DNA from: Chrysoperla carnea
Lineage: Eukaryota; Arthropoda; Insecta; Neuroptera; Chrysopidae
NCBI RefSeq assembly: GCF_905475395.1
Contig: NC_058340.1
Span: 74,750,181 to 74,814,180, forward strand
Direction: 5' to 3'
DNA length: 64,000 bases
Position 1 is the stretch's first letter. Each line of letters begins with the position of its first letter. The translations under genes were made by a program, and so were the position numbers. Shown piece after piece: positions 10,473 through 56,759 of the stretch. A model generated the notes under the pieces. It had not been told where the DNA came from. It did not search any database and worked only from the letters and a program-made list of their open reading frames with translations.

Positions 10473-10718
10473 GATTATCAATTTGCTTTTAGATAAACAA
10501 ATTGAGTGACACAATTCGAGAATTTTTATTTTCAAATATTTATTATTTTACTCCAATTTAAAAAAAAAAGTTGTACTAAGAGTTTCACTTTTAATCAAGG
10601 AAGATTTGATATTAAAATACAAATACATTCCTCAAGGTCACCAATCTTTCGCATGCTATAAGCTTTGTGTTTTGGTGATTATCATCGTCATCTGGAGACT
10701 TCGTATTTTATGCTTTGT

Positions 10719-14388: not shown

Positions 14389-14546
14389 TTTCACTCACTT
14401 GTGGTTGATTTATTAATAAATATTTCAAAATAAAACAATACTATCTTAAAAAAGTCTTTATTTATCTTAGAAAAGATTTTTTTCAAATAAAGTACATACA
14501 TTAGGTTGTGTGATATCCATAGACTTGCATAATGTGTGTATTAGAG

Positions 14547-16126
14547 CAAGAGCCCGCTTCGGCCAGACGCACATCATTTCATAAAACCCTAAAGTTTATC
14601 TGCGCACGTCACCAACACAGGTAAGAACGATGAGCGACTATGTAGTTTAGGTAGTGGTTACCTTGGCAGGTAACAGGTAACAAAGGTGTAAAAAACAGCA
14701 CCTCAAGTACATTAAGACATAAAGCTCTATTTTTTTACATTTGCTTCAGAATAATATTTAAAATGACGTCATCCATTGCCAGACACTTAGTATAGTTTCA
14801 ACCCCCTGCCGGACACCCCCAAACTCTAAAAAATTGTGATTACACTTACATTATAGTATAAAAGCTGAATTTATTATATGTTTCTTGGGGGGCTATGAAA
14901 AGAAGTTACCCCAGTAGCCGGACAGTTTTCAAGGTTTTTTCCATCTTGCTAGAGGCCTTGAGAGTCCGCCGTCGGTGCGAGCGCGAGGCAATATATATTC
15001 AGGCGGGTTTGAGTGAAATTTCTCAAAAATATTAACAAAACTCGAAAAATTTATGGATTACTTTTTATACCATGTATGAAATATACATAGTATATTAAGT
15101 TTAGTCCCAAGTTTGTAACGCTTAAAAATAATGATGTTAGGAAAAAAATTTTGTCATAGGTATTCATAAAATCACCTTATTAGTCCATTTCCGGTTGTCC
15201 GTCCGTCCGTCCGTCCGTCTGTGGACACGATAACTCAAAAACGAAAAAAGATATCGAGTTGAAATTTTTACAGGGTACTCAGGACGTAAAAAGTGAGGTC
15301 AAGTTCGTAAATGAGCATCATAGGTCAATTGGGTCTTGGGTCCGTAGGACCCATCTTGTAAACCGTTAGAGATAGAACAAAAGTTAAAATGTAAAAAATG
15401 TTCCTTATCAAAAATTAAACAACTTTTGTTTGAAACATTTTTTCGTAAACATCACTGTTTACCCGTGAGGGCGCCAATTAGGCGGAAATTTTATAATATG
15501 TACTATACTTGATTATCAGTTATGTATGTGTCACATGTTTGTATGCGTAATGTGATAAAGAAATCAACACTGACTATGCATGGTATTTCAACAATTTACT
15601 CAGTCAATTGTTTGTTTTCACTTGTTTAGATTTGTTTTTTTATTAAACTCACCATCTCACTTAAACCCGCCTGAATATATATTGCCTCGCGCTCGCACCG
15701 ACGGCGGACTCTCAAGGCCTCTGGCAAGATGGAAAAAACCTTGAAAACTGTCCGGCTTCTGGGGTAACTTCTTTTCATAGCCCCCCAAGAAACATATATA
15801 AAATTCAGCTTTTATACTATAATGTAAGTGTAATCACAATTTTTTAGAGTTTGGGGGTGTCCGGCAGGGGGTTGAAACTATACTAAGTGTCTGGCAATGG
15901 ATGACGTCATTTTAAATATTATTCTGAAGCAAATGTAAAAAAATAGAGCTTTATGTCTTAATGTACTTGAGGTGCTGTTTTTTACACCTTTGTTACCTGT
16001 TACCTGCCAAGGTAACCACTACCTAAACTACATAGTCGCTCATCGTTCTTACCTGTGTTGGTGACGTGCGCAGATAAACTTTAGGGTTTTATGAAATGAT
16101 GTGCGTCTGGCCGAAGCGGGCTCTTG
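14547..16126. mobile_element. Non-coding element with long terminal inverted repeats of about 470 bases
   Basis: The stretch 14547-15010 recurs in inverse at 15662-16126 with very high identity. The outer tips read CAAGAGCCCGCTTCGGCC and the inner tips match GGCGGGTTT near AATATATATTC. Each arm contains TGACGTCAT (about 14765 and 15902). The 650-base middle begins TATACCATGTATGAAATA and includes four GTCC-type repeats near 15197-15215; it has no long open frame. Fragments of this middle sequence also occur at 11333-11445, 36025-36186 and 36485-36580, so it is a dispersed family. Near-identical arms suggest recent insertion or conversion between arms. No clear target duplication was found. Confidence 0.8.
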
Positions 16127-16242
16127 GACTATATGGTTCATACAGATAAGTAAAGCATATAATTTTTGAATTAAACATTTAACAAAACTTTCGTGATAAG
16201 TTTAAAACTAACTCGACCCGTGAGGAATTCCTCAGTACAGAA

Positions 16243-16245
<3 letters not shown>

Positions 16246-16313
<68 letters not shown>
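16246..16313. repeat. (TA)n microsatellite
   Basis: An uninterrupted run of alternating T and A of about 66 bases between the large inverted-repeat element and the satellite-like repeats. Confidence 0.95.
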
Positions 16314-16315
<2 letters not shown>

Positions 16316-16460
16316 AATGGAAACTGACTGATCGATCAAAGCACAGCTGTAACACACACGTTCCATAAGTAACTTGGGTGAGCACTAAGAAGGGATTTTT
16401 AGAAATTCATCCCTTAAAGGGCATGCCAGGGTAATGTTGACCTAACAAGTAAGGTTAATT

Positions 16461-17060
16461 TAATGATTGGATGCAGAGTTTCTGAGATATCGCAATATTT
16501 GAATCGATTTTGGTCCGTATCTCAAAAACTATTCGACCAGTCATCAAATGCACCCGATTTTTGTATTTTTTGGGTCAAAATTACCTTATATACTGAGTTT
16601 TATCGAAATCGGAGATAAGAAAAATGTCTCGATTTTTCGAAATTTTTTTAAGGGGTATCCCTTTGAAAAAATCAAGGAAAACGGAAAAAAATTGTGTCTT
16701 TTGGAATCTGATGAAACTCGGTGGGTAAGGTAATTTTGATCCAAAAATTATAAAAATCAGGTTTATTTAATGATTGGATGCAGAGTTTCTGAGATATGGC
16801 AATATTTAGATTGATTTTGGTCCGTATGTCACAAACTATTCGACCAGTCATCAAAGGCACCCGATTTTCGTCCTTTTTGGGTCAAAAATATCATATATAC
16901 TGATTTTTATCGAAATTGGAGATACAACAATTTTTCGATTTTTTGCAATTTTTTTAAGGGTACCCCTTTAAAAAAATCGAGAAAATCGCAAAAAAAAATT
17001 TTCTTTTGGAATTTGATGAAACTCGGTGGATAGGGTAATTTCGATCGATTTTAATGAAGA
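16461..17060. repeat. Two tandem units of a satellite-like repeat, about 307 bases each
   Basis: Units start TAATGATTGGATGCAGAG at 16461 and again at 16768. Each continues through a TCGACCAGTCATCAAA segment and ends near GATGAAACTCGGTGG. A piece of the same unit lies in inverse at 41510-41705, so the family is dispersed. No coding capacity seen. Confidence 0.8.
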
Positions 17061-17372
17061 AACTAATGATTTATTCTAAATCGGGAATAGGCTCTCTTTC
17101 ATACTTTCTGAGGTAATAGTCATCTTATCTTCAAGGATTGTATTCAAAGATGCCAAAAAGTTCAATGCTCATAACTAAGTGTAATTAGTATTTTTTAAAC
17201 AATTATTTGACAGGATTAAAATAATGATATTTATTCATTGTTTTCTCATCGAACAAATACATAAAAAGATAATTTATTATCAATATTTACAAAATAAATT
17301 GTTATTATCTAAAAATTACAACAATAATAATATTTTTACATTTCATTTCTAAATAAAAAAATTAAATATGAT

Positions 17373-20300
17373 TTAAAATAGCCAAAAATCAAAATAATTC
17401 GCTAATGTTTCTGTCACCTTGATAGTTTGATAAAATGGTGAAGCAATTTCCACAAAATTAAATACTGCATTATAATCTTGTTTGAATGGTGGCGCTTTTA
17501 AATTACCAATTTTAACAGTACTGAAAAAGAAAAACATTAAAAATTCATTCAAACCAAATAACGTGAATAATTTTCACAAATTTTCAAGTTGCCACAAAAA
17601 TATCTCGCCTAAAATTAAATTTACCTATCATTGGCAAATTGTAACCACATATCAACAAAAATTCTACTCATTGCCCGAAAATTGGAACTAAACGAATGAT
17701 TAACAAGTAAGCGTGGTAAAATATATTGTAAATCGTCACCATGACAAACACCATAATTAATACGATTATTAGCAAGCTCATTCGTTGTGCTAAATTCACC
17801 ACGATACGTCATTATGTTATAATACACAGAAATATTCAACTTTTGGGCAAAACGTGTTGCCGATTCCTGCATTGGCACCAAGTAAATTCGATCAGTCAAA
17901 ATCTACAACAAAAATAAAAAGCATAATTTAAATAAATAAATTAAAAAAAGTATAACTTTTAAAATAAAAATCGAACTTGAATAAGATGATAAGAAACATT
18001 TCAAAATTGGGATCCCGTAGTGGATACAGGTATTACGCTGCTTGTGGAAAGAAACCTGGTTGTCTACCTCCACCTCCACCGCCCCCACCTTGTCCACCTC
18101 CTCCACCACCACCCCCTCCGCCAGCCCCACTCTGTCCGCCTCAACCTCGTCCACACATCCCCAGCTGTGCGATATTGGGTAAGTAATTTTTTTATTATAA
18201 AAAATCGAGTGCAAAGTTTACTATAAAGTAATATATAACGAATGAAGACGAGGGATCCAACGAACATGCGCAAGTTTGTGTGACGTTCTTCTTCGACCAT
18301 TAAAAAATTGACAATTTATTCTTGTAACATATTTTTATCTTATTTTGAAAAACAATTTGTGGTTAACTCAAACGTACCAAAGAAAATGATTTTTTAAAAT
18401 TACCTTTTGATAATATTGATAATTTAGATTGGAAATCGGTTGTCCACCTAAATATTTATCACGGATATCCTCTGCCAAGCATTGCCATCTTTCTACTTCA
18501 ATCGTATCATTGTAACATAAAATTATCGGAGCTAAATTCGTCCAATTTGTATTAATTTTTTCAAAATATTCTGGTTGAGTTAAATATGTGACAGTTGGAT
18601 TTAAACCTTCATCGCGAACATTTTCAAAAATTAATGGTAAATCTTGTACAATATCATCTTGCAGTACCAAAATATCCCACGGTGATTTTATTAAAAATGC
18701 ATTTGGATTCGATGCATTTTCAACAACTGCGCCAAAAAATGTTACAGCATAATTTGGATCGATTCCCAATGTTTGCTAAGACAATATTCAAAATTAAAAA
18801 TTGTAATTAAAACTTTTAATTCAAAGTACAAAACATCTAAACGGGATTTTTATGTGTAGTACAGAAAAAGATGTAACAAAAATCGGCTAATTATACAAAT
18901 GAAATAAACCGCTCATTTTTTGGCTAAAATCTGGTGAAATGTGTTTCTTAGGCTTCAAATAACATTCGTAAACTATGGAGAAAGAAAGAATGCTTTCATA
19001 CTTGAAACTCCGTGAGTGGCTTCCATTTGGCATCTCCTTCTACCAAACTTCTCTCTACGACTGTTAAAAAAAAAGTGTTACGTTTTCCAATGCTAACATA
19101 ACGATAACGCAGCAAGGAATTTGTGGGACTCTATCACCACTTGAATGTTATCAAGTCGTAGAGAGAAGTTTGGTAGACTTGCCAAAAGCAAGCCACTCAC
19201 GAAGTTTGTATTTACGAAATCCTGTTTCTGTCCTGCGATCTATAAGATTGTTATATAATTCATAAATAGTCAACTTGTATTACATATATGCAATACAAGA
19301 TAACAAGACTTGATGACATTCAAGTGGTGATAGAGTCTGACAAATTCTCTGCTGCGTTATAGTTATGTTAGCATTTGAAAACGTAACACTTTTTTTTAAA
19401 GGTCGTAGAGAAAAGTTTGGTTGACTCGCCAAATGGAAGCCACTCATGAAGTTTCAAGTATGTATTAATCATTTAACAAAGCATCCGTTCTGTCTCCAAT
19501 GATATTTGACACCTAAGAAACAAATTTCACCATAGGCAACTTGTATTACATATATGTAATACAAGTTGCCTATTTATGAATTATTTAACTTGAATTAACA
19601 ATTTATTGTTTACTAACAATAGAAACACTTCCGCAGTTAACTCATGGTTTACGAATGATTTTTGACACCTTAGAAACATATTCCATAAACTGTGTTTTGA
19701 CTTTACTGCAGTTATTTGCTAGGCTAAAAATTGCTTTTCAAATGAAATTTTGCACTTTGAGTTACAACCATAACAACAAACCTCTTCAACGATTCTTTTT
19801 GCTGGTCGATTTCGTAAACATATGACCATATTGAAAACACAATCACTTGGACAATCAAGTCTCGCGGCTAATTGTTTAGCCTTATCTAACGGTTTATAAG
19901 TTAAATATTGCGAACTTAAACATGTTCCACTTAATGCAATCCCCCTGTTGAATAGTGCCACAGATTTTTGAGATAAGTAATGCAAAGTTACACTCGCAGC
20001 GCCCGCTGACCAACCAGTTAGCGTTATAGATTTAGGATTCCCTCCAAATTTTTCGATATTTATTTGTAGCCACTGTAATGCCAAAACTTGATCTTTTAAA
20101 CCATTATTGCCAGAGACAATTTCATTCTCCGTGCTAAGAAATCCAAGCGCTCCCAAACGATAATTAAATGTTACGTAGACTACATTATGTTGTAACAATA
20201 AATCTGGCCTGTAATAATAGCCAGCTTCGTATAACCACAAACCGCCATGAATATGAACAATTGTATTCAATAGTTGATCGTTGTAAATAAATTTTGGCGT

Positions 20301-36926: not shown

Positions 36927-37490
36927 ACCTTAGGTTAGGTTAGGTTAGAGTGGCTGTCCTGGGGTGGGACACACTTAGACCATAGGGTACGTTGTGATAC
37001 CGTAAATGGGTTGGCCCATCCCCGGCCACTACTCCATGAACCATTTGAGGCTGTTTAAGAACAGCAGGAGGGCTTTGACGTCGACTGACTTTAGGTCGGA
37101 GAGGTCGTCAAAGAGAGGCTGGCTCAAGTAAGTCCTTTTCCTCATGACAATAGCTGGGAAGTGACAGAGAAGATGAGACATTGTCTCCTCCTCGTCACCA
37201 CTGTGACAGCTACTGCAGTAGTCGTGATACACTGCCAGGCCTAAGCGTTCAGCATGCTTGCCGCCCAGCCAGTGTCCTGTGATAGCCGCAACAACTTTGA
37301 AAACAGAGGCCCTTGGAAGTGATATGAGAATTTCGGAACGCCTGCGATTGTACTCAGACCATATCTGTCTTGCAGTACCACAAGTACGTTCTTCTCTCCA
37401 TCTAAGATTGGCCTTTTTCAGAATATCCTCTTTCAGGATAACTTGCAGTTCGCAAATGGAACTCCCGGGCAATACTACCTTAAAATAAAA
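36927..37490 (-). mobile_element. 3' end of a non-LTR retrotransposon (LINE), tail of TTAGG-type repeats
   Basis: The minus strand keeps an open frame (about 37493-37029, 154 codons) typical of the C-terminal end of LINE polyproteins with an RNase H domain: AAITGHWLGGKHAERLGL, then CSSCHSGDEEETMSHLLCHF with the CCHC-like C-x2-C...H...C finger. After the stop a 3' UTR of about 80 bases ends GGACAGCCACTC followed by four CCTAA/TAACC units (36930-36949). The 5' part is missing, as usual for truncated insertions. The clade (I/Loa/Jockey-like) is not certain. Confidence 0.8.
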
Positions 37491-37790
37491 CAATTTAATA
37501 ATATTTAAAATATTTTTTTATTTATTTTAATTAAAAATTGTATGTATAACGTTAAACAAAGAATAATCAATCGCACAAATTTTGTTTTGGCGACAAGATC
37601 ACTTTTTTTGAAACTCATATTCGGGAACAGAACTCGTGAACGAACATGAAGCTGCATACTTTTTATTCTGACTAGTAGTTTTAATTAATTTCTTCCTATT
37701 GTTGTTTTCTCACAATTATTTTAAAAATTTTTAATTCGTTTTCAGTTATTTCGTATTGTTGATTTAAGTTATTTACAAAAAGAAAGATTA

Positions 37791-40700
37791 TTATGAGTAT
37801 TCTTTTAAGAATTTCACATGGAATTCTTTAATATGATTTAACATTTCTTTTAGTTTATCGGTTTGTGGTAAAATCGTTGTACGGAAGTGATATGTACCAG
37901 CTTTTTGACCAAATCCAGAACCAGGAATAATACAAATACCTGTGAAATAGAAATAATAATTCAATTTATTCATTCTTTTTTAAATAATACATACATTGTA
38001 CAGAACATGTCATTAAAAATGGATAGAGGAGAACATAAGAGAAAGGGAGAGGTATGATGCAACTATTTCGATATTAAAATTTCAAATCAAAGAAAAATCG
38101 TGTCTAGGGCTCAAATGTTTAAAAAATACTTTTTTACTGCAATCTAGAATGTCAAAGATCTATGAAACTACTTACCAGTTGCTTCAAGTAACTGGAATGC
38201 ATAGAACACGTCAGGTTGTTGTCCATTTTGTTTGGCTATTTCAATTGCTTTTTCTGGTATTTCTACTCGCGGGAAAGCGTACATGGCACCTTGAACTTCA
38301 TTACAACTATATCCAGGAATACTGTTAAATGTATCGTAAATCAATTTGGCTCTATCCTACAAATCAAAAAATCTAAATTGAAGATCTCTCTGATATATTT
38401 ATCCGGCACACGTTTTAAATCATACCTTTAATGAACCTAAAACAGCATTCTTTTCTTTTTCAAAGAGATCGTAGCTTGGATCACCTTTTTGTGGTGAATT
38501 CACAACACAATCCATAACAGTTTGACCGAAAACAGTTGAACAAAGATTGGCGCTAATGTATTTTAATAATTGTGCTTTCACTTGTGGATGGAAATTTGTA
38601 ATTTCTGTATAACCACCACGAACACCACATTCGCCCATATAACCTTTTGATATTGACATAAAACTGGCCAATTCCATTGATGAGTAGGGTTCGCCCATTT
38701 CTTTCATGACCTGTGAACAAAATTATACGTTTAGATCTCTTAAAGAAATTCAGTTAAATCAAATATAGCGATTTTTAGTTTTTAGAACTATTTATTATTA
38801 CTCGTTCCCGATTGTTTCCGTTTAACGATTTTGCATTAAATAAAATATCTTACCTTTTTAAACGAATGAAATTCGGAACCCTTAGCATAAACATTATGCT
38901 GATAAACTTCATCAGCCAGAATTAATAATTTTTCATTAAAAGCGAACTTGATAATATTCTGAATATTCTCTTTTGTTAATACTTGTCCTGTTGGATTTCC
39001 TGGATTAATTACAACAATAGCACGTGGATTGATATTATGTTTTGTTTTGGATTCATTTAGAGCACGTTCTAATTCTGTATTATTGATACCCCATCCTTTC
39101 GACTCATCCAAAAAGTATCCAATTTGATGTATATTAAATTCGGCCAATGACGCTGAATACAATGGGTATTGTGGAATTGGAATCATAACACCTGGTTGTT
39201 TACCATCGATTGTACAAATTAATAATCGTAGCACGGATTTAATACCATCGCTGGCACCTAAAAAACAAAAGACAAATTTAAAAATCAAAACAAGTTAGAA
39301 CGACCTATAAAAATCCATGAAAAGGATGGATCTATGATTTCGATGTATTTTTTTCTGTTGAGTCAAAAATAAAGGTCTTTTTTCAAAATATTATCCAGTT
39401 TTTTTTATAAACAATTTAATTGTTTATAACGCTACCATTCATGCTAGACTGTGAAAAGGGGTGCAGTTATTCTCTAAAAGTAGCCCTCGAAAGAATTTTG
39501 CAAAATATTGATTAGAATAAAAGTTATTCAAAAATTTCGGAAGAAAACCGGGAAAATAGCACTTTTTTTTAGACATTTTCGCTTATATCTCGGGTTCTAA
39601 TCAAAATAGGAAAGTTTTTCTTGTTTGTCGTTTTCGTGGACCTTAATCGGCCACGAAAATCCTCTCAGATCTTACTACTGGCACACATTATGTAAACATA
39701 AACAAAATAATTACAAACCATTTGATAGAATAATATCATCTGAACTACATGGAAAACCATCTCGTTTTGTAATATATTGTGCAACATGTTCCCGAATCAC
39801 TTCAATACCAGGTGAATCCGTATAAGAACCAACTGAATATCCACGACATGCTTTCAATATAGTATCTGCATGACGTTTCGCATCAGCTGGAAATGCTGGA
39901 TCCTTTAAGAGCTCTGGATGCGCCACCAATGCTAATACTTGTCGGATAAATGTTATTGGTTTCTGTCCCATAGCATGTGCATCACCAATGTTTGCCTTGA
40001 CTACAGCCTTAAATGGTTTTTGGACTCCCTGCGAAAGAAGTAACACAAATTAAATAATTGATTATTGATTGTAGAAAATAAATTAAATACTTTAAAATGT
40101 ATTTTATATTACGGGATCGATTAGGAAGTATACAGGGTAGTCCATTTTAATCTATACACTTAAGTATCTCATTTTGTAATTAACCAATAAAAAAATAACT
40201 TAAACAAAAGTTGCAGAGTTTGATGGGGGGAGATCAGGTTCTGACATCAGATTGGACCTAGTTATTCGGGTTTCTTTAATAGTCAATTTATATCCTAAAC
40301 GGTAAGATTTCATAAGAAGCTTTCGGAGGAAATGTGACTTAAAAATATGTCATTATTATCAGAAAATAAGCCGGTAAAATACCGATGAGCTAAGACCGGC
40401 ACTGGATCTCATGATTAAAACTGTTAACCCCCCTCCCTTCACTCAAATGAATTGACCTCGTTTTGAGATTGAAGAGAGGATATAGAAATATATCTCAATG
40501 CTCTGAATTCATATGCAAATTAATATATTTATCTAAATTAATCTATTCAATAACTGCCCGTAGTCAAAAGACCCCTCCTTGAATCAACTTTGTTACTTTA
40601 ATTTTACTAAGCAAATAGCCTGTTGAAAGATCAACGTTACTTAAAATTAAACAAATAAAGCAGACTTCTAATTTCTGTATAATATTCGTTTTATAAAAAA

Positions 40701-42793
40701 ATTTTTTCTTACACTCTTTTGAAATAAAAGCATAGAGCGAAATTTGAATTTCCTATTTCTAGTAAAAATAGCTACTAAATCGCTAAAGGACACAGGATAT
40801 CTAAACATAGGATATTCAATTCTAATTCAATTCCACGAAATATAAAAACATTTTATTACCCGACTGTCAAGGAGTAGTTATGTTTTTCGCGCGTATCTTG
40901 TATGTATGTATGTTTTGTTTGTAAGGTTTCTTTATTACCTTGTACCTTCTAAACGGGTCGATAGATTTCGACAGTTAAGGTATCGTTATACTCGCCTTAA
41001 AAACCCAAGTGTCCTTAGATAGGTGTTTAAAAACATGGCGAATTTTTGGCGCGAAATAGTAATTCGTTAAAAAAAATTAACCAAACCTATCGAGTAGGAT
41101 ATTAAAATAAAGGAAATTGAATTGGATTCTTTTCAGATTTTATTTAATGCAATCGGTTTTAACTCATATAACTTGAAAATTTACACTTTGTATTTCTTCA
41201 TCGATTTCCGTACAACGTTTAGGATTTTCTCCCTCGTAATTAGGTAAAAAAATTGGAATTTTACGTAATTGTAGATTAATATTTTCAACATATAATACTT
41301 TTCGACGATTTAAAAAATATATATCGTAACTATTAACCGTCTTTTTCGACATTATGCAAAATTTTAAACTTAAATAATTTTGACATAAGTGATTTTGGCT
41401 CCTTGTGATTTTGGTATCAAAGTAACCAATGATTAATTTTTTTTAAATTTAGGTTGCTTTCTAATTTCAAAATCGTAGAATAAGCTAACATTTAGAATAA
41501 TGAACAGACTCAGTATATAAGGTAATTTTGACCCAAAAAGTACAAAAATCAGGTGCATTTTATGGCTGCGGTCAAATAGTTTTTGAGATACGGATTAAAA
41601 TCGATCAAAATATAGCGATAGCTCAGAAACTCTGCATCCAATCATTAAATTAACCTGATTTTTATACTTTTTGGGTCAAAATTACCCTATCCATCGAGTT
41701 TCAATTTCTAAAACAAAAATTGTTCTAATTAAATATTTTTTGGTATAATTAAATAATAATGACGTTTATTACTCATCTAGTGTTCAGTGTTCAAGGTGAA
41801 TTCAAGTGTAACTATTATAGCATATATTATTGTTTTAACATGAACATTCTAATTATTTATTACTCACATAAAATAGTATGAATTATGTGAATAGTATATT
41901 GCTTGCATGAAAAACAAGCCATGGTGCATATGGTTCTTGAAGGACAGATCAGTTTTCCGATTTTTGTAAATTTTTTACTATTCATTGGTTAATTGTACTG
42001 GGTGTCTCAGGAGTAACGGACGCATCAGGTTATCCTTGTTGCATCAGATAGAAAATAAAATTCTAAGACGAAAAGTCCTTTAATTAGTTATTAATTAAAA
42101 AATAGGGGGAAAATGATCCCCTTCAAAATGATCCCTATTGTGTGTAAATGTGGGTAAAATTAATAGGTAAAATGATATGGAATGTGTTGGTTGATTTGGA
42201 TGATTTTACCAGTGGTTTTTTGTTTTCATACTAATCGTTGATGTAATGTAAAAGAACAATTAATATTTTATGTGAACTGATAAAAATGCAATGGGATCAT
42301 TTTACCCACTTATTCATAGAAGGTCAATAAAACAATCTCTTTGAGAAATATTGAATAGTTCTAAAAATTTGAACAAATCAAAAGAAATTCCCATACCAAT
42401 ATTGCAACCCTTGAATAAAGAAACCAAAAATATTTCAACGTTGCATATCTCAATTTAAATTACATTTTTTTCTTATGGGGGTCATTATGGGACTCCTTCC
42501 CCTAATATTTTTTATATGTAAATGAATATAATTATTTAATTAAAGTTAGAAAATAGTATTGAATTTTCAATGTCAAACATAAAGTAGATGTTTCGTTACA
42601 ACGGTAACTCTATGAAATAAAACTCATGCACGTAGCAAATACCTTAAAAACAAAATATGCAATTTACCTTTTCCATTTCCTTTTCAATTTCACTGGCCCG
42701 AATAACCAACGGTCCACGGACCGCATATTGCAATTTAATAACACATGGATTTATATTATCCAAAGTAAGTAAAGAATTTTTTTCTGCAGACAT
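37791..42793 (-). CDS. ALT-2: alanine aminotransferase, cytosolic-type transcript
   Basis: PLP-dependent alanine aminotransferase. Six exons: 42793-42668, 40028-39719, 39257-38854, 38710-38426, 38356-38176 and 37939-37791; 484 residues. First exon codes [16 protein letters not shown] and the conserved YAVRGP arm. Core motifs are canonical: NGASDGIKS at the PLP phosphate loop, [25 protein letters not shown] with the catalytic lysine, RGGYTE, and C-terminal GSGFGQ with HFRTTI. The second exon begins in phase 0 after TTTCGCAG, and at least five other upstream or intervening exons end in the same phase (separate entries). The enzyme links amino-acid and carbohydrate metabolism; in many animals cytosolic and mitochondrial forms come from one locus. 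Confidence 0.95.
41185..41352 (-). CDS. Candidate alternative first exon of ALT-2 (nearest to exon 2)
   Basis: Open from ATG at 41352 to a possible donor at 41185, 56 codons, phase 0. It begins [18 protein letters not shown]. It resembles the canonical first exon in order: VENIN against LDNIN, and [10 protein letters not shown] against [10 protein letters not shown] just before the donor. The RGP motif is absent. The donor (AGT then GTAAAT) is weaker than the others. Confidence 0.5.
41510..42110. repeat. Inverted satellite-unit fragment and MITE fragment in the ALT-2 first intron region
   Basis: Positions 41510-41705 are an inverse partial copy of the 307-base repeat found at 16461 (it contains CTCTGCATCCAATCATTAAA). 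Positions 41995-42110 resemble the two ends of the MITE at 2513 brought together (GGGTGTCTCAGGAGTAACGG and TTGCATCAGATAGAAAATAA). Confidence 0.6.
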
Positions 42794-44326
42794 TATTTTT
42801 TTCACACTCACTTAACAATTTAAAAAAAGCTAATAATACCAAGAAATAAATGCAGCCACAAATAATACTGTTTTTAAAATTCACAATTTTAAATTGATAG
42901 TTTTAAAAATTTTATTATGATAATAATTTCCAAGTGTTGTGTTAATTATGATAAATCTGTTTCTATCCAGTTGTAAAAACTAAATTGTATTATTAACAAA
43001 TATATACATTTAGTGATAATAAATTTTTTATTTATTTTTATGATTAATTTTAAACAAATAAAGTACTTTTAAAGTACTTAAAAATGGATGACAATTATTG
43101 TGACGAGAATGTTTGTGTTTGTTTAAAAATAATAATGGTAAAGAGTGTTATAGAGTTTGTGAGTTGATATAATGTTTAGAACGTACACGCTACATTACAA
43201 AAATGGATTAATTAATAATAATATTTTATTGTTACATCAGTTTTTAGTATAAAAAAATTCAACAACCAGTGGTGGATTTGACAAAGATCACGTAGACTTG
43301 TATTTGTAAAAGGTAGATTTTTAAAGGTCATATGGGTAAAAATGTAAGATGAGATGATCACACAATGTGCGTGTTGCAACCGCGGATCTTCATTCAATTG
43401 TAAAATAAAAAATTTGTAGCGCAGGAGCTGCGTTAGCTAAGCGAATTCCCTTGGAGATTGAAAAAAAAAAAAAAAAATACAATTTTGTACTGTGCGCACT
43501 CCCATCCCTTGCTTATCAGTCGATTTTTCTCATTAACGAACTTGACCTTTCAAATACCAAAACCTTTCTTGATACCAAATTTTATTCAAATCGGACTTAA
43601 TTTGCGACCGCTAGAGAGGATACAGACACATAAAACGTATAAAGCAAGAGTGTTTTTAGTTAAACCGTTGTCTTCGGATGATTTCGAAAGTCCCACTACG
43701 ATATCCGACTGAAACTTTCCACCGAGAAATCGCCCCCCCCCCCAATCCGAACCATCATCCAAAACATTTTGAAATTCTATTTCCAATCATCCCGCAAAAA
43801 TCTTTTTCCGGAAATCAATGAACTGGGCCAATTTGATCCGTATATGTTGCTTTTCAGGAAAAATACCGCATGACACATGATGTTGATTAGAACTGATTCG
43901 ATGTAATCTAAATTGTAAATATTTTTCTTTAATGTCTAGTTTTAGGGACGAATGTTTATATTTCATTTGACGATTGGACGTGTTATTTCTGAAATGTAGC
44001 CTAAAACTGTAAACGAGAGGCGATATTCTGGTGCGATTTCAATAAATACCGAAAATTTCAGACTGTATTTACTATTAGGGTTTGATATACATTAATAATA
44101 ATTTATTCAAATATATTTATATTAAAAGTAATTTAAATTCGCCACTGTTTTATGCAAAGAGGCTAATTAGTAAATTCACGAAGCCGGAAAAATATTTTCC
44201 CACGAAAACTTTTATTAACATTATTCAATTTCATTGGCAGGGAATCATTTCTTCAGAAACAATACGAAAAAATATACGAAACACTCTGTATACAAAAAAT
44301 TTTATAACCGATAAACATACACAAAC

Positions 44327-44422
44327 ATTTTTCAAAATATTTGAAATTTCTTTTTTAGTTTTACTCATATGATCAATGTCGTAATTCAATTGTGAGAATT
44401 CATGTGTAACAAACAAATACAT
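44327..44422 (-). CDS. Candidate alternative first exon of ALT-2
   Basis: ATG at 44422 opens 32 codons ending in phase 0 at a GTTTGT donor, the same unusual donor sequence used by ALT exon 2. The end reads SKTKKEISNILKN, similar to ARTKEIEKILNQ of the exon at 45080. No RGP motif. Support rests on the shared end, phase and donor. Confidence 0.45.
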
Positions 44423-44626
44423 CTTTAATTTATTTTTAATTTTGATATGCGATCAAACTTTTAAAAAAAAATTTACCTTCATTAATGACAATTTATTTCC
44501 GTTCTCCAACTATGGAGACTTAACTATAATTATTCAAATTTCGCGCCACCATCAAAAAACATTTTTTTGAAAGTTATGAATACGCATGCTCTTCTCAAAA
44601 ATAAAAAGATGAAATGAAAAAATTAC

Positions 44627-44719
44627 CTGCTCTAATTGTTTTTCAAGTTCGTAAAATCGAGCTATTAATCCTCCACGAAACCAAGCATCTAAATCTATTT
44701 TATCTAATTCCGTATCCAT
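44627..44719 (-). CDS. Candidate alternative first exon of ALT-2
   Basis: ATG at 44719 opens 31 codons ending in phase 0 at CAG/GTAATT. It codes MDTELDKIDLDAWF, then RGGLIARFYELEKQLEQ, which aligns with [17 protein letters not shown] of the canonical exon. The 5' arm is about ten residues shorter than the canonical one. Confidence 0.6.
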
Positions 44720-45079
44720 TTTTAAAAAATACCGAAATAATGAATATGTCAAAAACGTAACTACAAAATTCTAAGAAATTTTATCATATTTATACAATTT
44801 TATTAAAATTGATAAGAGATTCAACTTTAATCTTATTTCAGTGTCAATCATGTTTAAATCTTTTGACTAATGTTGTAAGATTTCATACAAATTGCATTTG
44901 AAAAAGACAATTTATCGCTTCGCACGAAATAATTTCAAAAATACCGCCTATATGATGGTTATAAACCATTAATAAATGCGCAAGCGTGAAATCGAAAGAA
45001 GCAATAAGGTTAAAGGTTATTTTATATTTATATCCCATTTAAGAGTTTAGTAATAAATAAAATCAGTTAATAATATTAC

Positions 45080-45178
45080 CTGATTTAATATTTTTTCAAT
45101 TTCTTTAGTTCGAGCAGAAATTGGACTTCGATTCACCGAAGACCAAATTAAATCTAACCCATCTATTCTTGCACCCAT
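45080..45178 (-). CDS. Candidate alternative first exon of ALT-2
   Basis: ATG at 45178 opens 33 codons ending in phase 0 at CAG/GTAATA. It codes MGARIDGLDLIWSS, then RSPISARTKEIEKILNQ, which aligns with [17 protein letters not shown] of the canonical exon. Together with the exon at 44627 it shares a D-L-D-x-x-W pattern before the arm. Confidence 0.6.
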
Positions 45179-45199
45179 TTTAAAAATGTTAAGATGCAA

Positions 45200-47080
45200 A
45201 TTAAAAACATATATGACTATAAGAAATCAATGAAATTTCATCATATTTATAAAGGAAATGTTTATTAATAATTAATAAATAGCATAATTCAACTTTGAAC
45301 TGGTTTCAGTCAAAAATGATTTGTGAATTTTCGTTTACAAAAAAAACATGAAAATTTGACCGCATATCAATATTAGGTCATGCAAAAAAAAATTTTGAAT
45401 GTGAAGGTCATATTTTTTTAAATAGATAAAAAAACAGATTCTAGTTTAAACCTGATTAGAAACTTTCACTCTTGTTATCACAGAAAAAGTATTTTTTTTA
45501 AATTAAAAACAAAAACAAATGATTTTTTCGGTGAAAATTAGTACAACGGTGTAATATATCTTTTATTGACACCGCACCGGTAAAAACTAATTTGTGTTAC
45601 GGTAGACTTCAAGTATTTATTTTATGCAGAAACATTTTTTTAAATGATTTCTTCGATAAATTATTAAAATACCCTACTCTGAATATTTATTTCCACTTTT
45701 TTTTAAATAAGCGCAGACAGCATCAATAAATACACATAATACATATGTTATGTATGTGCATGCAAGCCAATGAAATACTATATAAATACAGGATGTGTAA
45801 TCAAATCTTGTACCTATTATGGAGGAATTTCTCTCAAAAATAACACAATTATATACGGTGCTATTCGTAAATTACGTCACATGTTAAAGGGAGGAGGTCA
45901 ACGAAATAAGGACACTGTGTGGCCAGGAGCAGGGGGGAGCAAAAGATTTGTAACGTCACATGTCAAGCATATCAAAATCTAAAATGTTAAAACGCAAAAT
46001 TTATATAGGTTTAAGCCTTCAACGAGTGCATTCTTGCTGTCTTGTTTTGCAAGGAGAACTGGGATAAAAGACCTCTTCATTTAACTTCATTGCATACACA
46101 ATGCATACTTTCACCTTCGTAACATACCTGCAAAGAAATCTGGTACAGCTTTACAAAACTGCAATGTAACATCAATGAGGCTTCGGACTGACATTGCTTT
46201 AAATTTCAATTATTGTTGGTGATTATACTGTAAAGCTGAGCTGGTCATAAAAAGGAAGGCTTTCTGGTAAGAAAGAATGGAGAGGTGTTATTAAAAAAGT
46301 AGGTAGCATAAGAAACATTCTCCCTCTCAATTACTTAAACCACTCCAAAATAGTTCTTAAATATAATCAGGATAGAGGATGTCTTTCTCCGTCACTGCCC
46401 AGGAAAAGAGACCTTTCCAATTTAAAGTCCTGCCAGTTCTTTTTAGGTATTATAACGAACCTTATAATCTAAATTAAATTAATTTATAATGGCCTCACTA
46501 TGGGTAGGCCATTATAACCTTGCCTAACCTTTTAAGGTACTAAAGGATTTGTATTCTTAATTTTTTTTAAATATAGCAAGATTTGAGCACCACATAGCCC
46601 TCAGTCCAACACTAGCATTTTGGTACCCAAACATTTTTTCGAACTCCTGCAGACTTTTTATTAGAACGTTATTATAAAGCTGACCAACAAGTGTTGTTTC
46701 TTTTTAGTTTCTGGTGAAGTATTTATTTTTTCGCATTAGAAAATAATAAAGCGCCATGCACCCAGGAACAGAAGCCAAGTTTTTTATGATTACAATATTT
46801 TTACTTATTTTAGTTCGAAGCTAAAAATTAAGATGGCGAATTTTCGTTATTTTGTTTATACAAAGATGTCATTCATTAATTTTTGAATTAAATATTGTGA
46901 TAAAAATAGTTTTAAAAAAATAGATAAATATTTAATAAAAAATATGAAGATTAAACAATTGAACGAGATTACTGTTTAATAAATTTGACATTATCTAAAC
47001 ATAGCCTTGAAAAAAAAAATACACAACTGTTATCTAATTAGCGTTATTCAATAAGTTCTAATTAAAAATATATAACTTGT
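45200..47080. other. Non-coding part of the ALT-2 first intron
   Basis: AT-rich, with a GC-richer patch at about 46020-46560 that looks like worn mobile-element sequence. It includes a hairpin AATGGCCTcactatgggtAGGCCATT (about 46490-46515). I see no gene and no further exon with the shared end. Confidence 0.4.
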
Positions 47081-47151
47081 AGCTAAATCAAAATTAACAC
47101 CCCTGTATACAGATGAATAAACAAAAAAAAGAAGAAACAAAATGGCACTAC

Positions 47152-47397
47152 CTTTAAGATTTCTTTTTCAATTTCTGACGCTCGTATAACAAGGGGTCCT
47201 CGAACAGCATATTCCATTGTTTTAACATGTGGATTCATGTTATCCACTGTTAAAAATGAACATTCACCTGCCATATTTCTTATTTGTATCCCGTTCAAAA
47301 TTTCAGTTGACCGCCGCCAATTTCTGATTCCATTATGATGATGATAAGCAGTTTGACAGGCAGCTGTCAAACTTTTGTTTAAAATTCGTGTTGACAT
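47152..47397 (-). CDS. Alternative first exon of ALT-2 with mitochondrial presequence
   Basis: ATG at 47397 opens 82 codons ending in phase 0 at AAG/GTAGTG. The first 41 residues are rich in Arg, Lys, Ser and Asn with a single acidic residue ([14 protein letters not shown]...IRNWRR), as in a mitochondrial targeting sequence. They are followed by [15 protein letters not shown], the full [20 protein letters not shown] arm. Joined to exon 2 at 40028 it gives 524 residues. The internal Met42 could also give a cytosolic form. This is the outermost of the candidate first exons. Confidence 0.85.
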
Positions 47398-49574: not shown

Positions 49575-52500
49575 ATGCAGTTAAAACATTTAAAAACTGT
49601 TTTGACCGCACAGGTAAAAACTAACGATTTTCAACGATAAAAAGGTAGTACAATGTATGCTCTTTTCAGGATTATGAAAATAAAATATCTGCACTAGCAT
49701 GGTCTCCGAACAATTTAAAATTAGCAGTTGCAACATCCGATCGACAAATTATATTATTTGATGAAAAAGGTGAAAAACGTGATCGTTTTTCAACAAAACC
49801 GGCAGATCCGGCAAACGGTAAAAAATCGTATGTTATTCGCGGTATTGCATTTAGTCCGGATTCAACAAAAATTGCCGTAGCACAATCTGATAATATTGTA
49901 TATGTTTATAAAATCGGAGATGGTTGGGCTGAGAAGAAAGTTATTTGTAATAAATTTCCACAAGCACAACCGGTTATGTGTATTGTTTGGTTATCGGCTG
50001 GACCGATAATTTGCGGTCTTACCGATGGTAAAGTTCGTGCTTTACATACAAAATCGAATAAGTCACAAAGTTTATATGGATCGGAAAGTTTAGTTGTATC
50101 GTTGGCATCAAATCAACGAGGAACGGGGTTTTTATCTGGGCATGCTGATGGGAGTATTGTTCGGTTTTTTGTTGCTGAGGATAATCAATCGGGTCAGGCT
50201 CAAGGTAGAGTGGTCACACATTCGAGTCCTCCATATGCATTGGCATGGCCTCAAGGACAAATTGTAGCGGCTGGATGTGATAAACGGGTTGTTGTTTATG
50301 ATGCTCAAGGAAAATTAATGCGAAATTTTGATTATTCAAAAGATGATGATGAACATGAATTTACAGTTGCAGCGTGTAGTCCAAGTGGGCAGGTATGCAA
50401 ATTAAAAACAGGTTCACTTAATATACTTAATACATTTGATAATCAACTCAGTATATACAGAGTCAATAGACATTCAACTCTGTTAATTATATTTCTTGTT
50501 AACATCACGGTTTTGTAGACAGTGGCAATTGGAAGTTTTGATCGTTTACGTGTATATGGTTGGAGCCCTAGAGATTTAACATGGAATGAAGGCCCCATGA
50601 AAGAAATGCGATTTTTTTATACAGTCACAGCACTTGCTTGGAAACGAGATGGCTCACGTGTTGCATGCGGCGGTTTATGTGGAAGTGTTGAATTTTTCGA
50701 ATCCGGTAAATTACAATTGGTGCTTATCTACGGTCATTACGATGCCACAATTAAACGATTATCGCCTATCGCCAGATTGTGACACCGTACAAACTGTAGA
50801 AAACCCCTAAATCATAACAATTTTGGTAATTAACGGATAATTTTTAATTAAAGTTCTTCGTCGCACTGTGTGGAAAGATAAATTTGAATTAACATATGTG
50901 GGACCATCACAAGTTCTGGTAAAGCCATTAAATCCAGACGGTGGACGTGGAGTTGTTTTACGATCACAACTAGGCCGAGAAATTGATGATGTACGAATTA
51001 TGGGACGTGATAGTTATTTAGTTGCACGCACCGAGGATACACTTTTGTTAGGAGATTTACAAAGGAATCTTTTAAGTGAGGTGAGTTTAGGTGCTATTGA
51101 TATCTGGGAGTAGCACCTCAAATTCACCAATTACAAATTTTTTTGAAATGCTTATTTTGGCTTAAAATTATCATGTAGTAGGCATTTTTGGTCGCTGAAT
51201 ACGAATCCTATATCAGATTACATGGATTCTGTCACGTATTCCGAAAATCATGCCGTATTTGACCGAAAATTTTTTTCATTGCAGGTAGCTTGGAACAGTT
51301 CTGGCAGACATGAAAAATTCTATTTCGATAATCCAACAGTATGTTTAGTATTTAACGCGGGTGAATTATCTTTAATTGAATATGGCGATAATACAATTTT
51401 AGCATCCGTACGCACAGAATTCGCTAATCCACATTTAATAAGTGTGCGATTAAATGAACGTAGTCAAAATTTTGAAAACAAGAAATTAGCATATTTACTT
51501 GATCTCAAAACAATTTGTATTATCGATTTAATCACTGGAATAACGGTCAATCAAATATCGCACGATTCGAAAATTGATTGGCTTGAGCTTAGTGAAACAG
51601 CGCATAAATTATTATTCCGGGATAAAAAACAAAGGTTAATACTTTTTGATACCGCAACAAATGAAAAAATCACGATTATGAGTAATGTTAGCTACGTCCA
51701 ATGGATTCCAGGAAGCGATGTAGCTGTAGCACAAACTCGTAATAATTTGGCTGTATGGTACAATATTGATTTACCAGATCGAGTCACTTTGATACCAGTT
51801 GAAGGGGAAATTTTGGATATTGTACGTGAAAATGGTAAAACTGAGGCAATTTCACAAGATGGGAATTTAACGTTAAGCTACGAACTTGATGAAGGATTAG
51901 TTGAATTTGGGACAGCAATTCATGATAACGATTACGGACGTGCGATTTTATTTTTGGAAACACTTGGGAATAAATCAGAAGCGGAAGGTATGTGGCATAA
52001 TTTAGCATCGCTGTCGTTAAGCATGAATAATTTACGTGTGGCTGAACGATGTTTTGCCGCGTTGGGAGACGTAGCGAAAAGTTATTTCTTAAAAGAAACA
52101 ATTAAAATCGCTGATGATTTTCATAAAACGCATAATTTGGATGGTATGCAATGTCCAGAAGTTTGGGCACGTATGGCAATTTTAAACAATGATCTAAAAA
52201 CTGCCGAAAATATTTATTTAGAGCAAGGAGATATTGAAAATGCGTTAAAAATGTATCAAAAGTTTCATAAATGGGAAGAAGCACTTAGTTTAGCCGAGCA
52301 ACGTGCTTATAATCAATATGAGGATTTGAAGGAAACGTACATGCGAGTTTTATTAAAATCAGGACAGGAGGAGAAAGCTGGACAAATTTTAGAAGATCAA
52401 GGTGACATTCAAAAAGCATTAGATTTTTATTTAAAAGCAAATCGACCTGCACGTGCTGCACGAATTGTTCAACAAAATCCGAATTTATTAAATAATGAGG

Positions 52501-55500
52501 AACTTGTACGAAAAATTTCGAAGCAATTACTCAAAAATGAATTATTCGAACAAACTGCGGAACTATACCATGCAATTGGCCACGATGAACTTGCAATACA
52601 ATATTATCGTAAAGGAAAAGTGTATCCAAAAGCTTTGGATTTAGCAAGAATTGTGGCTCCTGATCAAATTATTACCCTCGAAGAAGAATGGGGTGATCAT
52701 TTAGTTGCCACCAAACAATTAGATGCAGCTATTAATCATTTCATCGAAGCTGGTAAAACACTAAAAGCATTGGATGCTTCAGTTGAAGCTCGGCAATGGA
52801 AGAAAGCCGTACAAATCATTCAAGTATTCGACGATCCCGAACCGATTTTAAAATATTACAAAAAAATTGCTAAACATTTTATCGACGTGAAAGAGTATCA
52901 TGTGGCTGAAAATTTATTGGTCAAAGCTGAAATGTATCAAGAAGTTGTTGAAATGTACAACGAATCAAAGCAATGGGATAAAGCGCACGCGTTAGCTTCG
53001 CAATATTTGGATTCAAGTGAAGTGGCTGATATGTATATTAAACAAGCGCAACAATTAGAAGCTGAAAATAAATTCCGTGATGCTGAAAAATTGTATTTAA
53101 GTGTGGGTGAACCGGATTTAGCGATTGCCATGTATAAGCGTCACGATCAGTATGATAATATGATTCGAATGGTTGAAAGATTTCATCCCGATTTGGTACA
53201 AACTACACATATACATTTGGGTCAGAAATTAGAGGAGCTAAATAAATTTAGGGCTGCTGAAACACATTATTTAGCTGCAAGTAAGTTAAAACCGATCATT
53301 CTTAAATTCTAACCTTAAAGCTAAATGAAGGAATTGCTGGGGACTTAGGGGAGGAATTTCATAAAATCCTTTCAAAATTTCATAAAATACATCCCTGGCC
53401 CTTGACCCATCCGTACAAAGATATGATCCGGGAGCGGGTGTAAATAATACTACAGATATTTTCCATCGAAAAATTATCCAGGATCTGTAAAATACTTAAG
53501 GTTTTATTTTTATTTAGATGAATGGCGTGCAGCAGTTAATATGTACCGAGCGAATAATTTATGGGAAGATGCACATCGTGTTGCAAAATCAAAAGGTGGC
53601 CAAGCGGCAGCTAATCAAATAGCTTTTATTTGGGCACGAACTTTACCCCTTGAATCCTCTATAAATCTATTGAATAAATTTGGAATTCTAGAAACATGTA
53701 TTGATTACGCTTGCGAAACATTACAATTTGATTTTGCTTTTAACTTAAGCAAAAATTTAGCACAGAAATTAAGTGATGTTCATTATAAGTATGCAATGCA
53801 CTTAGAAGACGATGGTAAGTATCAAGAGGCTGAATTTGAATTTATATCGGCGGCAAAACCGAAAGAAGCTGTATTGATGTATGTGCATACACGTGATTGG
53901 GTGAATGCGCAACGTATTGCGGAATTACATGTACCTGAAGCTATTCCTGAAGTGTTGCTAGCGCAAGCAAATGAATGTTTTGCACAAAAAGATTATACTC
54001 AGTACGAAACTTTATTGTTACGAGCACAAAAACCGGAAATGATTATTCAACAATATAAAGAAAATGGTACGTATTTGGCAAAAACTTTGTAGGTTGTATT
54101 TTAAACAGGATTTTTATATTTCCAGGTATGTGGGTTGATGCATTACGTATTTGTCGCGAATACATGCCGAATTTATTACAACCGTTACAGCAAGAATATC
54201 ATCGCGTTGCAAACAATGCGGGAGATCAAACTGATGTCGAAAGTTTATTCAATCAAAGCTCAAATTGGTTGCAATCTGGAGAATATAAACAAGCAATCGG
54301 ATGTCTTTTACGAATTACCCCAAAAATTGCTGATCAGTCAACAGTGAATCAAGCATTGATTCAGGCGGCAGATATCACAAATCGATTTTTAGATGGACCT
54401 ATTGGATTGGATGTTGTGAAAATATTAGGTCCACGTTTAATTGAAATTGGACAATATACATCGGCTGCTCAATTATTTTTAAGTGTGGATCTAATCAAAG
54501 AGGCAATTGATAGTTTTATTGCGGCTGAAGAATGGCATAAAGCGAAAAAAATAGCCAAGGAATTAGAACCAATTTATGAAAGTTATGTGGAAGCGAAATA
54601 TAAAGATAGTTTACGTAAAGATGGTAATGTAGAACAATTAGCTGACATTGGTAAGTTCGTTTTTATCTTGGAGTACCACAAGGTTTAACTTTTGGCTCTA
54701 TTTTTATTTACTTTACATTTTTATTCATATTTTCCCCGAAAAAATAGATTTATGATTGAGTTAGTGTCAAGGAAGTATCTTTTTATAGTTACCAATTTCC
54801 CAGTCCCTTTTACACAAGTCCTTTTTTCGCGCTTTTTAAAATTTTGTGAATATCTTATTCAGCCCCCTTTAAATTGTTTGAAAATTTGTATGTAGATGTC
54901 GCCCTATTAGCTCAGTTGGTTAAGGTGTAACCAATTACGTCCGCGGTATGCTTAGGGTAGCGGGTTCGATTCCCGCCGTCGCAACAAAATTAATTTAATT
55001 AATAGTTGTGATGGGCTGGTGTAGTGCATGGTATATGCATGCAGGAGGTGCAACACATATAGTGGACAGCCAATATAACCTAACTTAACCTTGTATGTAG
55101 ATAAAAGTTAATGCTAAAATAGTGTCTTTTGATTAACTCACCTTTTTTCTTCTCACTTCACAACTTTTGTTTTATTTACAGATATTATTGGAGCATTGGA
55201 TTTACTAGCAGAACAAGGTCAGTGGGCACGTTGCTTAGAAAAAGCAAAATCGCATGGTAACCAACAAGTTTTACACAAATACGTCGCATTATATGCCACA
55301 CAATTAGTTCGAGAAGGATACACTTTGGAAGCGTTAACTTTGTATTCTACACATGGGGCACCAGCGTTACCAGCAAATTTTAATATTTACGTACGAATTG
55401 CCACCGATATGTTTGCAATGGATGATTTATCGGACGAAAGTAGCTACAATTTATGGTCTCAACTACGTCAAGTTTTATTTCAAATAAATGAATCCTTACA

Positions 55501-56759
55501 AACTACCTCAAATATTCCAACGGAGAAAAAATTACAATTTCGAACGTTATTTTTAATCGCCCATTATTATGCAGTACGTTGCGCTTGTAAACAAGTAGCT
55601 ACACTCAATACAATGGTGGCAAAAATATCCGCGGCACTTTTACGCTACACGGATATTATACCAGCGGATAAAGGATTCTATGAAGCTGGAATGGATATGC
55701 GAGCTTTGGGTCGTGATTCTGAAGCGTTTGTATTTTTAAATCATTATTTAGATATTTGTGATGCAATTGAAGATCAAGATGGTAATAGTGGGGGTCAATT
55801 AGTGGATCATTCTGATTTAACGTGTACCGATTTTCCATCAAATATTCCATTGCCAGCTGAGTTATATTTGAAAAATGATTTGAGTAAACATGATGAAGCG
55901 AAAGAGTGGGTTTTAACTGTCAGCATGGATCAAAAAGTGAATCAGGTAAGTTTTTCGGTTGAAATCGATTTCTTCTGTCCAAAAATGAATCGAATAATAA
56001 AATCAGATTCTCATAATGAACAGGTTGGAGACTGACTCCTCTTGTGGAAATGTTGCAGGATTCAACTGTTCCGATTTACTATTTTGATCGCAAAATAAGG
56101 CACGTAGCTTGTTACCCCCTCCCGCACCATATATACGGATAGGTCAAGGGACAGAGATATATCAGGTGCGAGGGTTTATCGATTCCTCAATATATGACGG
56201 TTTTCCATTCAGATATCTTCGCCATTGCGAGCCTACTAGATATGTAACACGAAAGGTTACAGTGAGGCACATCAGCATCTTATCAGATAGCCATCCCGCA
56301 CTTCGGGCGCTTAAGATGTTAAAATTCCAATCGAAGGTCTATGAATGCTTCAAAGAACTGAATCGTCTAGCACTGAATAACACAGTCAAACTGATTTGGG
56401 TACCGAGCCACACTGTTATTTGCATCTGTAGAAACCTGCAGGACGCATTTGCGGTACCCCTTCCTTATTATTACGTCTTGCGCTATATTATAAAATATTT
56501 TGTTTTACAGTCGTTACCGACCGATGATCGATCATTATACGAATCGAGTTTACAATTAGAAGACACCCCATGTGTGGTTACCGGTTATCCAGTAAACACT
56601 AATCGACAACCAATCACATTCCAACGTTCTGAGTTGAAAGCAAATCGTGATGCATGGACAAAACTAAGTTTAGCCGCAAAAATGGCACCACATTCAGATG
56701 TTACAAACTGTGTGATGTTCTTCGAACAATGGTTGGGTCAATCTAGTTATGTGATGTAA
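49575..56759 (+). CDS. IFT172: Intraflagellar transport protein 172
   Basis: Peripheral IFT-B subunit needed to build cilia; in insects it works in sensory neurons and sperm-associated cilia. Nine exons: 49575-49613, 49670-50392, 50519-50705, 50854-51080, 51285-53280, 53518-54066, 54126-54650, 55182-55945 and 56511-56759; 1752 residues, close to the vertebrate length. Exon 1 is a 13-codon exon coding [13 protein letters not shown], matching the family N-terminus. The first 600 or so residues form WD40 propellers ([27 protein letters not shown]). The rest is helical TPR-like repeat ([12 protein letters not shown]-type, [23 protein letters not shown]-type). The C-terminus has CVVTGYPV. All motifs are in family order with no break. 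AATAAA lies near 56907. Intron 7 holds a SINE and intron 8 a LINE fragment. Confidence 0.97.
54899..55092 (+). mobile_element. tRNA-derived SINE in IFT172 intron 7
   Basis: The head has an A box (TAGCTCAGTTGG) and a B box (GGTTCGATTCC), about 55 bases apart, and no matching acceptor stem, so it is not a working tRNA gene. The 3' tail reads GGACAGCCAATATAACCTAA. This resembles the 3' end of the LINE at 36927 (GGACAGCCACTCTAACCTAA), the pattern expected when a SINE uses that LINE's machinery. Confidence 0.75.
56060..56470 (+). pseudogene. LINE RNase H fragment in IFT172 intron 8
   Basis: Same strand as the host gene. The recognisable part is [17 protein letters not shown], then [14 protein letters not shown], the fourth acidic block and WVPxH block of a retrotransposon RNase H domain. 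Upstream sequence fits earlier parts of the domain poorly, and the end is degenerate. By chance the frame stays open into IFT172 exon 9; that join is not a gene. Confidence 0.7.

Follow-up and report, generated by a model that had tools for sequence, protein, structure and literature searches.

Candidate alternative first exons upstream of an alanine aminotransferase gene in the lacewing Chrysoperla carnea

On chromosome 4 of the lacewing Chrysoperla carnea (74750181-74814180; genome of 559,487,470 bases in 337 contigs), an alanine aminotransferase (ALT) gene, here called ALT-A, is preceded by several exons that could each serve as its first exon. The window, meaning the whole stretch of 64,000 nucleotides analysed, is best read as carrying a small first-exon array with alternative promoters, through which the N-terminal active-site plug of ALT would be exchanged, and we put the probability of this reading at about 0.5. 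Judged from the sequence, the extra exons appear to be real for two candidates, probable for a third and wrong for a fourth, and silent or relaxed exon copies are the main rival. In the proposed array, the mitochondrial enzyme would come from a promoter at 47.4 kb and the cytosolic enzyme from one at 42.8 kb. Further isoforms would come from X45 and X446, a related pair of TATA-type cassettes in between, and probably from a third cassette (X41), located after the cytosolic exon. Splicing of each first exon to the acceptor at 40028 would be in phase 0; the catalytic body would stay constant and the N-terminal arm and plug alone would be exchanged. We infer promoter activity, splicing to 40028 and tissue-limited use of the extra exons, as well as variants with altered or lost activity, which might for example modify the enzyme in mixed dimers.

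Candidate first exons of ALT-A and the test against chance

The exons concerned, in window coordinates, are:

47152-47397, minus strand: putative mitochondrial first exon of ALT-A, 82 codons, ALT exon-1 score 116.8
45080-45178, minus strand: X45, candidate extra first exon, 33 codons, plug SVNRSP, score 26.2, DNA homology to X446
44627-44719, minus strand: X446, candidate extra first exon, 31 codons, plug AWFRGG, score 32.5, above all 40 unanchored controls
44327-44422, minus strand: X443, rejected candidate, score 7.7, poor donor GTTTGT
42668-42793, minus strand: cytosolic first exon of ALT-A, 42 codons, start of the complete 484-codon frame
41185-41352, minus strand: X41, 56 codons, probable extra first exon that keeps the ENIN and TEID-type ends, score 24.7
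39719-40028, minus strand: common exon 2 of ALT-A with the shared acceptor 40028
39257-38854, 38710-38426, 38356-38176 and 37939-37791, minus strand: common exons 3-6 of ALT-A

The cytosolic exon and exons 2-6 join to a complete frame of 484 codons with GT/AG at every intron; the exon 2 acceptor reads CAG/GGAGTC (the slash marks the splice site). The spliced protein of 484 amino acids matches solved ALT structures over nearly the full length (human ALT2 3ihj, E 6e-182; barley AlaAT 3tcm, E 4e-147). An earlier sequence-only reading had listed six alternative first exons for this gene, and their donors, ATGs, open frames and phase 0 ends, as well as the acceptor at 40028, are all present. Phase 0 donors together with a phase 0 acceptor are compatible with splicing of all first exons to one set of constant exons. 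The ending pattern said to be common to five of them turned out to be loose, with the 41185 exon ending in EIDEEI without L or M and the 44327 exon having EIxxxL alone.

The same reading had named one mitochondrial and one cytosolic start among the six, which agrees with our results: the exons ending at 47152 and 42668 resemble such a pair. The exon at 47397-47152 adds a basic leader, from which its targeting was read by eye, and repeats the N-terminal arm, and the 42668 exon opens the complete ALT; the two agree at the DNA level in 74% over 115 nucleotides. An in-frame methionine, Met42 (47272-47274), is located inside the mitochondrial exon and could give a second cytosolic form via leaky scanning.

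To judge the remaining four, ATG frames of at least 20 codons ending at a phase 0 GT were scored, with their ends anchored, against a profile of ALT exon 1 (34 columns) built from the mitochondrial, cytosolic and ALT-B (the second ALT gene, see below) first exons of the lacewing plus human and barley ALT, with the extra exons excluded. Two control sets were used: 1,723 real frames, taken on both strands from 246 kb of the lacewing genome (46 kb of the window plus twenty stretches of 10 kb), and 41,799 frames present in 16 Mb of third-order Markov sequence. Neither X446 (32.5) nor X45 (26.2) was equalled by any control of either kind, and X41 (24.7) was equalled by none of the real and one of the Markov frames. 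The score of X443 (7.7) was reached by 46 real and 829 Markov frames. Between 47400 and 40029 there are 36 ATG-to-GT frames, among which 0.7-1.0 would be expected to score as well as X443 and about 0.001 as well as X41. Since scores like that of X443 are common among controls, the extra exons beyond chance number three (45080, 44627 and 41185) and not the four proposed. X443, with its poor donor AAT/GTTTGT, was dropped as a chance frame.

With human and barley ALT alone, the scores of X45 (19.0) and X41 (23.0) were reached by 10 and 3 of the 41,799 Markov frames and that of X446 by none, and no real frame reached any of the three. An ungapped test over 20 codons was in agreement and gave no equal for X45 and X446 among 2,098 real and 65,313 Markov sites; for X41 the counts were 1 and 24, and for X443 334 and 10,218. 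A profile without the donor anchor is weak and its scan too noisy for detecting broken copies: the best score per control stretch (40 controls, 20 stretches on two strands) ranged from 19.2 to 30.8, so that X446 (32.5) lies above all 40, X45 (26.5) is exceeded by one and X41 (24.7) by four. X45 is secure despite this control because it is DNA-homologous to X446. At the DNA level, X41 has no similarity to the other ALT-A first exons (z about 0.5), and the case for it therefore comes from the anchored test. In summary, X45 and X446 are solid as relatives of ALT exon 1, and X41 is probably a third extra first exon.

The putative X45/X446 cassette and the active-site plug

The DNA of X45 and X446 is 67% identical over 269 nucleotides (E about 1e-9 when seven flank sequences were compared). 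This likeness is confined to about -140 to +40, comprising some 140 bases upstream, the exon and the donor. Scored in aligned blocks against random pairs from the same genome, the upstream part gave z values of 5.3 (-140 to -81), 5.0 (-80 to -41) and 2.3 (-40 to -1), the exon 4.7 and the intron 2.0 (+1 to +40). The outer blocks gave 0.0 (-300 to -221), 1.5 (-220 to -141), -0.1 (+41 to +120) and 0.3 (+121 to +200). The conserved upstream blocks are:

45179-45318, minus strand: X45 conserved upstream block, with TATAAATA at -73
44720-44859, minus strand: X446 conserved upstream block, with TATAAATA at -75

As a reference, the ALT-A and ALT-B cytosolic first exons reach 15.2 in the exon, with -1.4 to 2.1 in the surrounding blocks, and the mitochondrial and cytosolic exons 5.3 in the exon, 3.0 at -140 to -81 and -0.7 to 1.5 in the other blocks. 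Because the similarity of X45 and X446 is limited to the upstream block and the exon, the unit looks like a duplicated promoter-plus-first-exon cassette, although a duplication that merely had this size would look the same. The 20-mer TATAAATATGATRAAATTTC in the -80 to -41 block has zero-mismatch matches in the 559 Mb only at X45 and X446, and the reversed control pattern occurs once. Both exons have an intact ATG and frame and the same donor, CAG/GTAAT. Further copies of the X446 cassette were not found by a genome DNA search, which missed even X45 (67% identical) and is therefore sensitive only to closer copies. No TATAWAW was found within 300 nucleotides of X41.

Two repeats were seen next to these exons. 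A 25-nucleotide element (88% match) flanks the X45/X446 pair in inverted orientation (44437-44461 and 45351-45375) and is either a boundary element or chance. Between X41 and the cytosolic exon, the intron contains an inverted repeat (41508-41699; 57-nucleotide arms, 84% complementary, 78-nucleotide spacer), perhaps similar to a miniature inverted-repeat transposable element.

The part of the protein that would be exchanged is described for Escherichia coli AlaA in passages of PMC4094517. There, the N-terminal arm contributes to dimer formation, and by folding back into the active site it forms a plug that finishes with Gly19-Pro20. Three plug residues, Tyr15, Ile17 and Arg18, are part of the active-site lining and extend to catalytic residues, and the proposed role of Tyr15 and Arg18 is to bind the side-chain carboxylate of glutamate. 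The same passages place the plug of human ALT2 differently and report no activity for an ALT2 isoform from which the first 100 residues are missing. In our alignment, YAVRGP of ALT was equated with the AlaA plug Tyr-x-Ile/Val-Arg-Gly-Pro. X45 (SVNRSP) keeps the arginine and proline and X446 (AWFRGG) the arginine and glycine, X41 has an unrelated NYEGENP stretch instead of the plug, and the plug tyrosine is gone from all three. The E-I/L-E-K helix is still present in X45 and X446. Replacement of the YAVRGP arm, claimed earlier for four exons, is thus seen as an altered or lost plug in X45, X446 and X41, and the claim falls for the chance frame X443. Given these plug changes, the variant isoforms are predicted to differ in second-substrate handling or to lose activity, which would go beyond mere retargeting.

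Preservation, decay and competing explanations

ATG, open frame, phase 0 and donor are intact in X45, X446 and X41. The upstream flanks of X45 and X446 are 60-64% identical, the exons 65% and the first 40 intron bases 53%. With the 38% difference of the upstream flank as neutral yardstick, about 0.55 changes per site separate the two. Under simulated neutral decay (indels 0.05-0.15 per substitution, two assumed ancestors), ATG, frame and GT were kept without frameshift in 0.35-2.5% per lineage and with a probability of 1e-5 to 6e-4 in both, and decay of an ordinary first exon left an open frame of equal ALT likeness with P 0.0004 to 0.011 (six comparisons: X45, X446 and X41 with two sources each), values that have to be read knowing that only intact exons would catch the eye. 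A whole-ALT tblastn search from 40028 to 47152 found no remnant of exons 2-6 other than a single match at chance level (20 amino acids, E 8.4). X45 and X446 therefore look like extra first exons and not like the heads of lost tandem genes.

Several observations speak against an array in use. No retrocopy that would record the splicing was found in genome searches with ALT and with X45 plus part of exon 2. The former gave 18 matches (E up to 10), of which 13 belong to the two tandem ALT genes; the other five, outside these genes (E 1.2e-7 to 0.19, 29-43% identity), look like other aminotransferases. The latter gave only both exon 2s and X45 itself. The lost plug tyrosine is a residue proposed to matter for catalysis. 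TATAAATA occurs by chance in 103 of 6,520 control stretches of 61 nucleotides, and the TATA box counts as one event and not two because the X45 and X446 blocks are homologous. Exon identity is barely above that of the upstream flanks, there is no third-position excess, and between X45 and X446 over the last 20 codons, which are few, the nonsynonymous rate (dN) is 0.69 and the synonymous rate (dS) 0.37 (dN/dS 1.88); the reference pairs over 34 codons gave 0.21 (mitochondrial/cytosolic) and 0.22 (cytosolic/ALT-B). The amino acid likeness of X45 and X446 (8 of 20 residues identical, P 0.14; P 0.20-0.26 for the substitution score) is not higher than neutrality would give for an open frame. Codon usage gives modest support (P 0.005 for X446, 0.027 for X45, 0.14 for X41 and 0.16 for X443) in a weak test, in which the true mitochondrial exon has P 0.35 and the cytosolic exon 0.05.

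These data bear most directly on the possibility that X45, X446 and X41 are old first-exon duplicates that once worked and are now relaxed or silent, giving no protein today. The high dN/dS and the missing third-position excess would fit this, as would the loss of the plug tyrosine in all three and the low overall similarity. However, X45 and X446 keep ATG, frame, phase 0 and consensus donors despite the flank difference of about 38%, their lengths differ by 6 nucleotides and in frame, the upstream TATA block is kept, and the simulated chance of both staying intact under neutrality is small (1e-5 to 6e-4). We regard this explanation as somewhat unlikely. The decayed copies that the sequence-only reading had offered as an alternative become less likely given the preserved frames, although X45 and X446 show no purifying selection at the amino acid level. 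Kept frames and signals combined with fast amino acid change suggest that the two look like relaxed or diversifying isoforms, or like copies that lost their job late.

It might also be that tissue-limited promoters, with testis as a candidate tissue, drive the extra exons. The products would then be subunits of little or no activity that change the normal enzyme by entering mixed dimers, or else the extra promoters would affect only the expression level, the N-terminus being incidental. The position of the AlaA plug residues in the active site, the aid of the arm in dimer formation and the inactivity of truncated ALT2 (passages of PMC4094517) are consistent with dead subunits, the catalytic body would be unchanged, and a dN/dS near or above 1 suits loose sequence demands. 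The plug arginine and the E-I/L-E-K helix that remain in X45 and X446 argue against it, and we consider this quite doubtful. Chance frames that run up to a GT in the AT-rich DNA of an intron explain X443, since 0.7-1.0 such frames are expected there, and might explain X41, with one Markov frame scoring as high, no DNA similarity to the ALT-A first exons and higher unanchored scores in four control stretches. X45 and X446, which no donor-anchored control equalled and which are homologous to each other, argue against it, and as a general explanation chance is very improbable. X45 and X446 may be internal exons, as an aligned AG 38 and 41 nucleotides before their ATGs would suit a non-coding leader exon, but their ATG frame would be out of phase with the donor of the mitochondrial exon. 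Use of X45, X446 and X41 by ALT-B (acceptor 35252) is unlikely, since it would work only via read-through past the end of ALT-A.

An array of alternative promoters and first exons thus stays our preferred reading. The earlier proposal of alternative first exons with differing arms agrees well with X45 and X446 (homology, TATA-containing upstream block and intact signals) and moderately with X41, and finds no support in X443.

The second ALT gene, neighbours and known systems

Downstream of ALT-A lies a further gene, which the earlier reading left unmentioned:

35632-33213, minus strand: ALT-B, complete second ALT gene, six exons, open frame, one recognised first exon

In the alignment, ALT-B has phenylalanine at the position of the serine that contacts the phosphate of pyridoxal phosphate (PLP; AlaA Ser105), with NGSFES for NGASDG, and asparagine for isoleucine in the NIGD motif (AlaA Ile40); the roles of Ser105 and Ile40 are taken from passages of PMC4094517. 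Because of these substitutions, the activity of ALT-B may be changed or lost. ALT-A and ALT-B are 95.7% identical in intron 4, 95.0% in exon 5 and 97.3% in exon 6 (38425-38176 and 37939-37791 versus 33834-33585 and 33361-33213), whereas identity elsewhere is 82-87% in exons 1-4 and 47-53% in introns 1, 2, 3 and 5 (first 1,000 bases at most). The near-identical tracts resemble the outcome of gene conversion.

Between the two genes, a 154-codon frame (37029-37493, minus strand) resembles by eye the end of a non-LTR (long terminal repeat) retroelement and has no Pfam match. A row of carboxylesterase-like frames, recognised by eye, occupies 409-20270 on the minus strand, with a Pfam COesterase match in both frames tested. 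An IFT172-like gene (49976-56035, plus strand; IFT140/IFT172 TPR match in the one frame tested) and the mitochondrial ALT exon lie head to head.

To our knowledge, the ALT genes of other insects have one or two starts. Like dual-targeted ALT genes, ALT-A has a putative mitochondrial/cytosolic pair (47152 and 42668), but it differs from them in two or three further candidate first exons without targeting sequence and without an intact plug. We found no report of variable first exons in an ALT gene in the titles, abstract starts and selected passages that the literature search covered; in the rice paper with most mentions of both "alanine aminotransferase" and "alternative first exon" the terms were unrelated in the passages covered. 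A paper on ALT splice variants in Sparus aurata (2008) is cited by title in PMC9309667, and the passages covered of the Drosophila ALT paper PMC10663161 do not mention isoforms.

Tandem rows of homologous first exons upstream of one constant exon set are described for UGT1, GCNT2 and the clustered protocadherins in PMC1885805, and in UGT1 each first exon has its own promoter (PMC3325998). ALT-A, known here from its genome sequence, is similar in having homologous tandem first exons (X45/X446, the mitochondrial/cytosolic pair, and X41 by protein profile only), and it would likewise exchange the N-terminal part and keep the constant part. In contrast to these clusters, it would exchange 31-56 codons, the arm and plug of a PLP enzyme, and not a whole domain, it has two or three extra exons only, and there is no relationship to the vertebrate genes. 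Dscam belongs to the diversity of cell-adhesion receptors, whereas ALT-A encodes a metabolic enzyme; what the two share is tandem 5' cassettes in an arthropod gene, seen for Dscam in chelicerates (PMC4835542). A UGT1-like array in a housekeeping PLP enzyme, driven by TATA boxes and swapping the plug, would let one gene supply ordinary ALT to both compartments and, in addition, isoforms that choose their second substrate differently or have a regulatory function in mixed dimers. The fast change would then be diversification and not decay; we think this reading unlikely.

Provided that the cassettes are in use, promoter choice would diversify a textbook enzyme of amino acid metabolism, and would do so at the loop closing its active site. 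They would then represent unusual variable first exons in an insect metabolic enzyme and a natural experiment on the role of the plug in eukaryotic ALT.

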